From a virus: DNA of 64,000 nucleotides. The notes below the pieces were generated by a model that worked only from the letters and a program-made list of their open reading frames with translations, had not been told where the DNA came from and searched no databases. How positions within the stretch are numbered: position 1 is the stretch's first letter; the number at the start of each line of letters is the position of its first letter. Below are positions 9,362-18,437 of the stretch, in pieces. Location of the stretch: IMG/VR virus record IMGVR_UViG_3300034284_003265, positions 1 to 64,000 of that record; one strand, given 5' to 3'. The position numbers and the translations under genes were made by a program.

Positions 9362-9664
9362 ATGATTCCTCCGAGCAAGACTGAAACCATCAAGACAATC
9401 GCTGACCTCAAGGCTTATTTTGTTGAGGTTGATGAATTGAACCGCTATAATGGTGTTACCGCCGTTAGAACCACAAAAGAAATTGCTACTGAGTTGTTGA
9501 TGGATAATGTGAGTATTATTCGTGGTGGTAATATCCGATACTTTCAGATTAAACATATTGGTCTGGGAGTCTATGAAGTTAAGTTACGGGATAATAACCG
9601 AGTTAATACAATTTTAGTAGAAAATTGGGAAAAACGGGTTATTAATAATACTGAACATTTCTGA
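9362..9664 (+). CDS. hypothetical early protein
   Basis: 100 aa (MIPPSKTETIKTIADLKAYF...), mixed alpha/beta appearance, not recognised. Codon use shifts from C-ending to T-ending codons along the gene. Confidence 0.6.
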   Translation: MIPPSKTETIKTIADLKAYFVEVDELNRYNGVTAVRTTKEIATELLMDNVSIIRGGNIRYFQIKHIGLGVYEVKLRDNNRVNTILVENWEKRVINNTEHF

Positions 9665-9881: not shown

Positions 9882-10259
9882 ATGAATTACGTTAACTTTT
9901 TTGAACTTAAGGGTAAGACTATAACTTCAATTGATGGTAGTAACTCTGATGATAGTGACACTATTATCACTACCAGTGATGGTTCTATTTATACTTTAAC
10001 GCATATACAAGATTGTTGTGAACACGTTAGAGTGTATGGTTCTGTTGGTAATATTGATGATGTGCTTAATGTAGAAGTAATTGATGCTGAGGATACTAAT
10101 CCTATGGATAATCCTAATGCACCTGACTATAAGGCTTATGATTCTGCTACTTGGACTCAATTTAGAATTGTTACCAACAAGGGTACTTTTGAAATTTGGT
10201 GGTTGGGTGAATCAAATGGATATTACGGTGAAACTGTTTCTGTAATTAAGAACTCATAA
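9882..10259 (+). CDS. conserved phage hypothetical (QDCCE / GESNGYY family)
   Basis: 125 aa. The order GKTITSIDG, TSDGSIYTLTHIQDCCE, ATWTQFRIVTNKGTFEIWWLGESNGYYGE is the signature of a conserved phage family that I believe is catalogued as DUF7448; the function is unknown. It is coupled to the preceding small gene and lacks its own promoter. Confidence 0.75.
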   Translation: MNYVNFFELKGKTITSIDGSNSDDSDTIITTSDGSIYTLTHIQDCCEHVRVYGSVGNIDDVLNVEVIDAEDTNPMDNPNAPDYKAYDSATWTQFRIVTNKGTFEIWWLGESNGYYGETVSVIKNS

Positions 10260-10331
10260 TTTCTGAAATAAAATAATATCGTACTTTTATAAAAACACTA
10301 ATTATTTGCGCAGAAAGCGCCTGAAAAGTGC

Positions 10332-10358
10332 TTGACTCCTGAAAAATTCCTGATAAAT
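10332..10358 (+). promoter_or_regulatory. promoter for the gene at 10366
   Basis: TTGACT, 15-nt spacer, TAAATT, 7 nt to ATG. Confidence 0.6.
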
Positions 10359-10365
10359 TATAAAA

Positions 10366-10497
10366 ATGAAAATTAAAGTTAGAAAGAGCTGGGGAGACAC
10401 CAAACCCATCACCAAGCGCATTGAGAGTGCCAAACTCTACAAGCGCAACAAGAATAAGTTCAGCTATTCAAATTACAGCTGGGGAGATCTTAACTAA
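10366..10497 (+). CDS. small basic protein (43 aa)
   Basis: MKIKVRKSWGDTKPITKRIE..., with the word SWGD at both ends and a very basic middle. Not recognised. Promoter spacing supports it as a real gene. Confidence 0.55.
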   Translation: MKIKVRKSWGDTKPITKRIESAKLYKRNKNKFSYSNYSWGDLN

Positions 10498-16918: not shown

Positions 16919-16994
16919 TACCCTATCGTCTAGGTTTAGGACGGATGTGTTCTCTGAGACATCAACCTTGGTGAAAATCCAAGTGGGGTAACCA
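16919..16994 (+). tRNA. tRNA, isotype unclear (Glu-like body)
   Basis: Acceptor TACCCTA/TGGGGTA, D-arm of tRNA-Glu type (CGTCTAGG), encoded CCA. The anticodon stem GATGT/ACATC encloses a 10-nt loop GTTCTCTGAG, so the anticodon cannot be assigned (CUC or UCU possible). T-loop TGAAAAT is unusual. Confidence 0.6.
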
Positions 16995-17089: not shown

Positions 17090-17166
17090 GGCCTCATCGT
17101 CTAATGGCAAAGGACGGTAGACTTTCAATCTACAAATCGTGGGTTCAATTCCCCGTGGGGCTACCA
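17090..17166 (+). tRNA. tRNA-Glu(UUC)
   Basis: Loop CTTTCAA, T-loop TTCAATT; G1-U72 pair at the acceptor end; CCA encoded. Confidence 0.9.
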
Positions 17167-17174
17167 TTTTAAAA

Positions 17175-17260
17175 GTGACGAGGGCAACAAAGAGACTTAA
17201 ACCCAAAAGATTGAAGGAGCCCTGCATGCCGGGTAATTCCTACTGGGGTAATCTCGTCAC
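17175..17260 (+). ncRNA. interleaved structured RNA E1
   Basis: 86 nt closed by GTGACGAG/CTCGTCAC (8 bp), with GGGC/GCCC inside. It has tRNA size and an acceptor-like helix but no CCA, T-arm or anticodon arm. Confidence 0.5.
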
Positions 17261-17270
17261 AATATTTAAC

Positions 17271-17435: not shown

Positions 17436-17442
17436 TTTTTCA

Positions 17443-17556
17443 AATACATTAGGTGAAGGCAACGAACGTAGCTTAACTGGTAAAGCAACCGCACGAATAA
17501 GCGGGAGTCATTCAGTTCGAATCTGAATCAATAGTTGAAGTAGTAAGTAATGTATT
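17443..17556 (+). ncRNA. interleaved structured RNA E2, tRNA-like core
   Basis: Closed by AATACATTA/TAATGTATT (9 bp). Inside lie a D-arm-like GCTTAACTGGTAAAGC and a T-arm-like ATTCAG-TTCGAAT-CTGAAT, but the loop between CCGC/GCGG has no U33 and there is no CCA. Confidence 0.45.
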
Positions 17557-17584
17557 GACACTGATAGACATTGAAGGTTATAAT
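17555..17584 (+). promoter_or_regulatory. internal promoter in tRNA array 1
   Basis: TTGACA, 18-nt spacer, TATAAT (both consensus). It overlaps the end of E2 by 2 nt. Confidence 0.6.
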
Positions 17585-17647: not shown

Positions 17648-17721
17648 TCTCGGATCGTATAATAGTATTACCTTCGGTTGTTACCCGAATGATAAGGGTG
17701 CGATTCCTTTTCCGAGAGCCA
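17648..17721 (+). tRNA. tRNA-Asn(GUU), A18/G55 type
   Basis: Acceptor TCTCGGA/TCCGAGA, loop TTGTTAC, T-loop TGCGATT, D-loop TAATAGTAT (AG in place of GG), discriminator G, CCA. Confidence 0.88.
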
Positions 17722-17729
17722 TTTTCAAT

Positions 17730-17855
17730 TCCAGAGTAGCTCAATGGTAGAGCATTCGGCTGTGGGCCATAAAGTATTATTTAATAGAGAGTGCAAATCT
17801 CATAAGGCCAAAGTTAACCGAAATGTTGAAGGTTCGAGCCCTTCCTCTGGAGCCA
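17730..17855 (+). tRNA. tRNA-Asn(GUU) with 51-nt anticodon-loop insertion
   Basis: Outside the anticodon loop this is a standard tRNA-Asn: acceptor TCCAGAG/CTCTGGA, D-arm GCTC-AATGGTA-GAGC, stem TTCGG/CCGAA, variable loop ATGTT, T-loop TTCGAGC, G73, CCA. The loop (17760-17817) is 58 nt; removing 51 nt (17763-17813 or 17764-17814) leaves CTGTTAA, the exact tRNA-Asn loop. The insert folds with GGCC/GGCC and an inner GAGA/TCTC hairpin. Confidence 0.85.
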
Positions 17856-17864
17856 TTTTCAAGT

Positions 17865-17961
17865 GGGACTAGTAATTGATAAAAAACAAATCAGATAGAT
17901 AAGCAAGTTCGAAATTGTTTGACCCGTGTGAAATCCTGATGTAAGTTTAGATGAAAGTCCC
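17865..17961 (+). ncRNA. interleaved structured RNA E4
   Basis: 97 nt closed by GGGACT/AGTCCC, followed by a T-rich run. Contains AAGCAA/TTGTTT. No tRNA features, no ORF. Confidence 0.45.
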
Positions 17962-17973
17962 TTTTAATTTTTT

Positions 17974-18088
17974 ATATGATGTATGGAGTATGCTGATTAA
18001 GGGTTAGGCAGTTGATCAAATTGCAATAGTATGAACATAAAGTGCCTTAAGAGATTTAAATAATTTCATTGTTCATCATACATTATAT
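17974..18088 (+). ncRNA. interleaved structured RNA E5
   Basis: 115 nt closed by ATATGATGTATG/CATACATTATAT (12 bp, one wobble). Inner helices TTAAGG/CCTTAA and GCAGTT/AATTGC. No tRNA features. Confidence 0.5.
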
Positions 18089-18275: not shown

Positions 18276-18286
18276 TTTTTATTCGG

Positions 18287-18437
18287 TGTCAGCAGGCTCA
18301 CGATGCTGAAGAAAGAGTTGATAATTGCAAGTATCAATGTCGTGGAGAGTGAGTGGGTTGATCTATACAAGATATCGTGCTATAGGTCGTAATGATGTCT
18401 GTTAAACATTCCCGTAAACCAACATCGAATTGTTTTT
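18287..18437 (+). ncRNA. interleaved structured RNA E6 region
   Basis: About 150 nt with hairpins CAGCA/TGCTG, TTGATA/TATCAA and CACGA/TCGTG. No gene and no clear single closing helix. Confidence 0.35.

Follow-up and report, generated by a model that had tools for sequence, protein, structure and literature searches.

A tRNA-Asn gene at positions 17730-17855 of the IMG/VR virus record IMGVR_UViG_3300034284_003265 carries in its anticodon loop a 51-nucleotide (nt) insert which is itself built like a tRNA. The record is a 91-kb contig, the first 64,000 nucleotides of which constitute the window analyzed here. Such tRNA-like inserts in the anticodon loop are real, structured and recurrent, and 26 distinct versions occur at one and the same site. 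Comparison of their sequences indicates that the insert is very probably a spliced intron. We put at roughly one in two the probability of the complete reading, namely that it is a phage-specific, tRNA-mimicking intron which tRNA-end-processing nucleases would excise, a T4-type RNA ligase then joining the exons; within that statement the splicing is weighted above the assignment of the enzymes.

The interrupted gene and its relatives

The tRNA model of Rfam matches 17730-17852 with a score of 56.7 bits, the insert being looped out, and ARAGORN, when introns are permitted, calls tRNA-Asn(gtt) at 17730-17855 with a 51-nt intron; run without the intron option it does not call the interrupted gene. 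All arms are intact: an acceptor stem TCCAGAG/CTCTGGA followed by G73 and CCA, a D-arm GCTC/GAGC, an anticodon stem TTCGG/CCGAA, and a T-arm GAAGG TTCGAGC CCTTC. The anticodon loop is 58 nt long, and removal of the 51 nt at 17764-17814, which lie between U35 and U36, restores CTGTTAA (CUGUUAA). The sequence-only reading had described the arms, the loop and the effect of the removal in these terms, and it is correct on each point. On the plus strand, the 5′ exon (17730-17763) comprises the acceptor 5′ strand, the D-arm, the 5′ strand of the anticodon stem and C32 U33 G34 U35, while the 3′ exon (17815-17855) comprises U36 A37 A38, the 3′ strand of the anticodon stem, the variable loop, the T-arm, the acceptor and GCCA; both follow from Rfam and ARAGORN. 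In the window copy by itself the splice junction is ambiguous, because GT is common to both ends, and it is the relatives which fix it as lying after CTGT and before TAA. The asparagine determinants GUU, G73 and U1-A72 (PMC9976931) can be read in the window copy and in most variants, G1-C72 being found in L053 and a few class-II bodies.

A gapped pattern built on the ends of the insert located 13 more contigs with a near-identical insert, and BLAST revealed, at the corresponding position in three cultured Sinorhizobium phages (phiM12, phiM7 and phiM19), a diverged homologue; there the interrupted gene carries the annotation of a pseudogene or of tRNA-Thr. Patterns based on the 5′ half only and on the 3′ half only each recovered divergent members, and the side left free was correct every time; two further pattern searches left the anticodon free, and again the restored loop was correct in each case. 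The resulting collection comes from large-phage contigs of many unrelated phages together with the three isolates. It contains 24 inserts in tRNA-Asn and two, homologous to one another, in tRNA-Lys(UUU), and all 26 lie between nucleotides 35 and 36, preceded by CUNU and followed by UAA. The sequence-only reading had called the insertion intron-like and proposed a search for it in related phages; the fixed site bears out the description, splicing itself being judged from sequence. The further concern that it might be an artefact of assembly is removed by its presence in separate isolates and in many independent metagenomes.

When both the anticodon and position 36 were left free, introns were found only in tRNA-Asn and the two tRNA-Lys genes, in a search that sampled other D-arms little. 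The tRNA-Lys inserts are those of L023 (CTTT at 9578 of the reverse complement) and L066 (minus strand, 10254-10374), with the loop reading CTTT before and TAA after the insert; the L066 contig and the L022/L023 lineage possess a tRNA-Asn intron as well. Six of the tRNA-Asn inserts sit in genes with a GUU anticodon and a long, class-II variable arm (L054, L055, L066, L070, L079, and the second gene of L128, with CTGT at 1984); U1-A72 and G73 are kept in three of these, and the others look serine-like, so that asparagine is only a putative identity for this group. A pattern scan of 84,980 bacterial species returned coding false positives and one group I intron (L040, considered below) but no mini-introns, an absence that is weak because the pattern detects nine of the 26 known variants. 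A match in LR756502 was discarded as an ordinary tRNA-His.

Anatomy and covariation of the insert

The inserts range from 35 to 71 nt and share one order of elements. A purine comes first, then the first strand of a helix of 3-5 or more base pairs (bp); a connector measuring 1-37 nt leads to a hairpin, after which, in most cases separated from it by a single nucleotide, come the other strand of the helix and a tail with the consensus R-A-R-N-N. In the window copy (17764-17814, plus strand) the first intron base, 17764, which is G in 25 of the variants and A in one, faces the purine R1 of the tail. The acceptor-like helix follows, with its 5′ strand at 17765-17769 and its 3′ strand, placed by alignment and covariation, at 17805-17809; its GGCC pairs with 17806-17809. 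The GGCC/GGCC helix and the inner hairpin are present as the sequence-only reading described them, and the helix covaries: its first pair is G-C in 25/26 and G-U once, and positions 3 and 4 each exhibit five pair types. The connector (17770-17786, beginning UAAAG) occupies what is the D-arm position in relatives, several of which have there a D-arm-like hairpin with GG in its loop; a UAAAGG-type motif is frequent (8/26 variants) and is incomplete in the window copy. The tail occupies 17810-17814; its second base is A in every variant, and it belongs to the side left free in the 5′-only search. The longest members, at 67-71 nt (L021, L026, L130 and L132), have an extra hairpin at the position of an anticodon arm, and the predicted fold of the L026 insert is a cloverleaf with three arms (z = -5.1).

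The inner hairpin (17787-17803; stem GAGAG/CTCAT, 7-nt loop TGCAAAT) reads as a tRNA T-arm, as the sequence-only reading had suspected. Across the variants its closing pair is G-C in 25/26, T54 and C56 are each present in 24/26, and A58 is invariant. A T-arm motif of 4 or more bp is found in 21 of the 26 inserts, against 0.13 expected in shuffled sequences (maximum 2). The register is supported by relatives, which read GAGAG-TGCAAAT-CTCAY, the window having T (a G-U pair) where they have C (G-C). They likewise show a T-loop where we had considered a nested tRNA-Cys read from a GTGCAAA loop, and that idea was rejected. Twenty of 24 members have 16 nt between the T-loop and the 3′ splice site, and the remaining four have 15 nt, even though total length varies from 35 to 71 nt. 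In a tRNA, positions 61-76 likewise span 16 nt, and both ends of the insert therefore lie near the positions of tRNA ends. We initially linked this spacing to encoded CCA ends, but discarded the idea because several members spaced alike encode no CCA.

Covariation carries the case for structure; the folding energy of the 51-nt window insert, folded alone, is unexceptional (z = -1.79). In a gapless alignment of the conserved blocks only, with the connector left out, 13 of 15 pairs have changed on both sides; the covariation score is 0.856 as against 0.217 after shuffling, and any one-column displacement of the pairing partner makes it collapse. The register of the helix was set by the splice sites and that of the T-stem was picked partly by pairing, a caveat countered by the count of T-arm motifs, which was made independently. 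For the anticodon stem formed by the exons, 100% of positions are paired and four of the five pairs vary on both sides. The tRNA-like character thus extends beyond the inner hairpin to the whole insert, with an acceptor-like helix, a connector and a T-arm.

Probable excision and the enzymes that may perform it

An empty site is available for comparison: the tRNA-Asn of Ochrobactrum phage ORM_20 has CTGTTAA where the very similar phiM12 gene has 46 extra nucleotides. Neither the complete phiM12 genome nor G012, a 340-kb contig which also possesses a tRNA-like Asn intron, contains an uninterrupted tRNA-Asn, and without splicing neither would therefore have a tRNA-Asn. The window differs in that a second, uninterrupted tRNA-Asn(GUU) with a different body is called by ARAGORN directly upstream (17648-17721, plus strand), so that the interrupted gene is not strictly needed by this phage. 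Such an arrangement would suit an insert which is retained. The RNA would then be a stable, double tRNA mimic with a decoy or regulatory function, directed perhaps at tRNA-modifying enzymes or anticodon nucleases, and large phages do encode many odd tRNA-like RNAs (e.g., L016 1748-1850). We regard this as improbable: apart from the situation in phiM12 and G012, the loop bases and asparagine determinants are kept such that removal yields CUGUUAA, or CUUUUAA in the case of tRNA-Lys, in 26/26.

If the insert is spliced, its shape suggests how. In the precursor, the anticodon stem would have stacked on it another tRNA-like element, made up of an acceptor helix, a D-like connector and a T-arm; in the compact inserts this element has no anticodon arm. 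RNase P recognizes the shape formed by the acceptor, the T-arm and often the GG of the D-loop in precursor tRNAs, and favors U directly before the cut. The predicted geometry of the insert, with its acceptor/T-stem stack, T-loop and 5′-side site, is compatible with such a substrate, and the first intron base is preceded by U in all variants. RNase P may thus take the element for a precursor tRNA and cut on its 5′ side, between U35 and the G that follows, leaving a 3′-OH on exon 1; a second tRNA-processing nuclease would sever the far end of the element from U36, so that exon 2 begins with a 5′-phosphate; and a T4-type RNA ligase, Rnl1 or Rnl2, would then join CUGU to UAA to give a normal tRNA-Asn. 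T4-type ligases join precisely these ends, RtcB joining others, and the known task of Rnl1 and Rnl2 is the rejoining of tRNAs broken in the anticodon loop. Both an Rnl1 and an Rnl2-type ligase are encoded by phiM12, and among intron-bearing records of at least 150 kb an Rnl2-type ligase is present in 6/6 and Rnl1 in 5/6; RtcB was found in none of 16 records tested. Of the RNA-ligase or endonuclease partner for which the sequence-only reading had suggested a search, candidates exist on the ligase side, and no endonuclease of family PF01974 was detected in the 16 records. We hold the RNase P plus ligase route, taken specifically, only as a tentative proposal, somewhat short of an even chance.

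Several observations weigh against this reading. Excision is deduced from the comparison of sequences, and the RNase P step is drawn only from geometry and conserved bases. The inserts lack CCA, the pair directly at the proposed RNase P cut would be a G-A mismatch, and we know of no nuclease that obviously fits the 3′ cut. The standard T-loop is missing from two of the 26 inserts (L055 and L072), and Rfam, applied to the inserts alone, gave no meaningful match, its tRNA model included. RNA ligases are common in large phages: of three arbitrary large contigs with no known intron, a small and arbitrary control set, none has Rnl1 and two have an Rnl2-type ligase. No RNA ligase was found in the fragments of the window lineage (75-134 kb, possibly incomplete). 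Finally, a related insert of Lak phage has a 28-nt leader, and its 5′ splice site is not at the RNase P position.

The last point, together with candidate introns of other shapes in G012, neither of which an RNase P cut explains, would be accommodated if the intron were cut by a dedicated anticodon-loop endonuclease of phage or host and then re-ligated, the tRNA-like fold serving as a docking handle or being the relic of an inserted tRNA gene. The evidence from site and shape is equal for this and for RNase P, and the junction bases (a purine at the first position and A2 in the tail) could be the signature of such a nuclease. No candidate enzyme emerged, and the T-arm and its distance to the 3′ site are strictly kept, which suggests that the fold itself is measured; we consider a dedicated endonuclease possible, though on balance unlikely.

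Self-splicing, in which the insert would be related, as a degenerate or trans-acting form, to a group I intron once present at this site, draws on the L040 case. Here, on the minus strand at ~621-1190, a group I intron of 568 nt (RF00028, 85.5 bits), which contains an HNH open reading frame, interrupts the tRNA-Asn of an Ignavibacteriae metagenome-assembled genome at the same place. This intron marks the tRNA-Asn site as open to introns, and does not link the two kinds. Like bacterial group I tRNA introns in general, the compact inserts lie in the anticodon loop, but they are several times shorter and have no catalytic core: 35-71 nt is too small for P3-P8, which requires ~200 nt or more. A U precedes the 5′ splice site throughout, as in group I introns, but the obligatory terminal G (omega G) is not kept, the last intron base being G in 13, T in 12 and C in one, and, as against the RF00028 score at L040, no Rfam intron model matches in the window or at the mini-introns. 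The exclusion of group I introns in the sequence-only reading is sustained on all three grounds, and self-splicing of this descent appears very improbable.

The same reading likened the size of the insert to that of archaeal introns, a hint which is not supported. Archaeal and eukaryotic tRNA introns, recognized by a bulge-helix-bulge and cut by EndA/Sen, are likewise short, lie in the anticodon loop and need cutting and ligation; in the phage inserts the site differs, and neither a clear motif nor the enzyme was seen. The shared size range is all that favors removal by a bulge-helix-bulge endonuclease. The site is 35/36 rather than 37/38, and no clear 3-4-3 bulge-helix-bulge is visible by eye, no dedicated search having been run, the consensus being CUGUG/RARNN and then UAA. 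PF01974 is absent from 16 phage records (fragments included; hosts mostly not identified), four archaeal controls being positive. An archaeal-type intron is thus almost certainly not what these phages carry.

Related systems and implications

Introns in the tRNAs of Lak megaphages were reported by Devoto et al. (2019) as the first in phage tRNAs and called enigmatic, and one of them, in tRNA-Thr (TGT), is reported as possibly coding for a tRNA in its turn (PMC6784885). Lak-A1 also has a tRNA-Asn-like gene (L189, 10003-10167, minus strand; called Ser(gct) by ARAGORN) which is split between positions 35 and 36 by 93 nt; these comprise a hairpin leader followed by a tRNA-like element which ends at the 3′ splice site. 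Read by eye, the two Lak-A1 inserts, in tRNA-Thr and the tRNA-Asn-like gene, both possess a tRNA-like element, with 14 nt from T-loop to 3′ site, and a leader of ~28-30 nt. They resemble the compact family in being small anticodon-loop inserts, not group I as far as reported, with an element ending at the 3′ splice site. They differ in the leader, since in the compact family (35-71 nt) the element begins at the 5′ splice site; moreover, the compact inserts are nearly confined to tRNA-Asn, are spread over numerous unrelated phages, some of them cultured, and have a structure backed by covariation. No earlier report of this family, its anatomy, spacing, covariation, preference for tRNA-Asn or presence in cultured phages was found in the literature searched, which excluded most subscription papers and preprints. 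The Lak work glimpsed the kind; the compact family is not described in that literature.

In phage T4, Pnkp and Rnl1 repair tRNA after cleavage by PrrC (PMC3400036). There, too, a phage ligase rejoins a tRNA broken in the anticodon loop, and phiM12 has both ligase types; the break proposed here differs in being part of normal maturation and in removing an insert. The insert also resembles the tRNA-like domain of transfer-messenger RNA (tmRNA), which combines an acceptor and T-arm with a diminished D region and lacks an anticodon arm, although the phage element is itself an insert inside another tRNA.

Other unusual RNAs and genes were encountered in the same genomes. The window record has a baseplate wedge protein which is ~40% identical to its counterpart in Microcystis phage Mel-JY01 and 36% identical to that in Flavobacterium phages, and it encodes approximately two dozen tRNAs and one tmRNA. 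Among these a tRNA with an apparent four-base anticodon (ctct; 16919-16994), possibly a frameshift-reading tRNA, is kept in L005 and L006. The spacers between window tRNAs at 17166-17270, 17440-17575, 17861-18085 and 18283-18431 look like structured RNAs, each enclosed between long inverted repeats; the one at 18283-18431 also occurs in L024, and its folding energy is unexceptional. L016 (1748-1850) and L024 (2091-2194, minus strand) share a tRNA-like RNA with an acceptor stem of 10-11 bp, a 37-nt anticodon loop and no CCA, the changes in the acceptor stem being mutually compensated. The candidate introns of G012 are simple hairpins of 30, 57 and 73 nt in tRNAs for Lys (L173, 3054-3159), Leu (L172, 6380-6521) and Met (L170, 732-881), respectively. 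In phiM12 and phiM7 a gene for an HNH endonuclease (KF381361.1, 95066-95503, and KR052480.1, 92612-93049, respectively) extends over the 3′ end of the tRNA that bears the intron, a possible link to intron mobility, and ARAGORN calls a stop-codon-reading tRNA (anticodon tta) in phiM12 (L115, 7214-7289).

The tRNA introns of bacteria are regarded as group I introns that splice themselves (PMC3400036, PMC3984707). Compact, conserved phage tRNA introns outside group I imply protein-dependent, cut-and-ligate tRNA splicing in bacteria. That this might amount to a new bacterial pathway, in which a tRNA-disguised intron is freed by the end-processing enzymes of the host from RNase P on and a phage ligase performs the sealing, is a proposition which we hold to be less likely than not. 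The question of splicing is testable at once, because phiM12, phiM7 and phiM19 grow on Sinorhizobium meliloti. If the reading is true, the annotations of these cultured phages as pseudogene or tRNA-Thr would be corrected, part of the enigmatic Lak introns would be explained, and the phage ligases Rnl1 and Rnl2 would gain a role in tRNA maturation besides repair.
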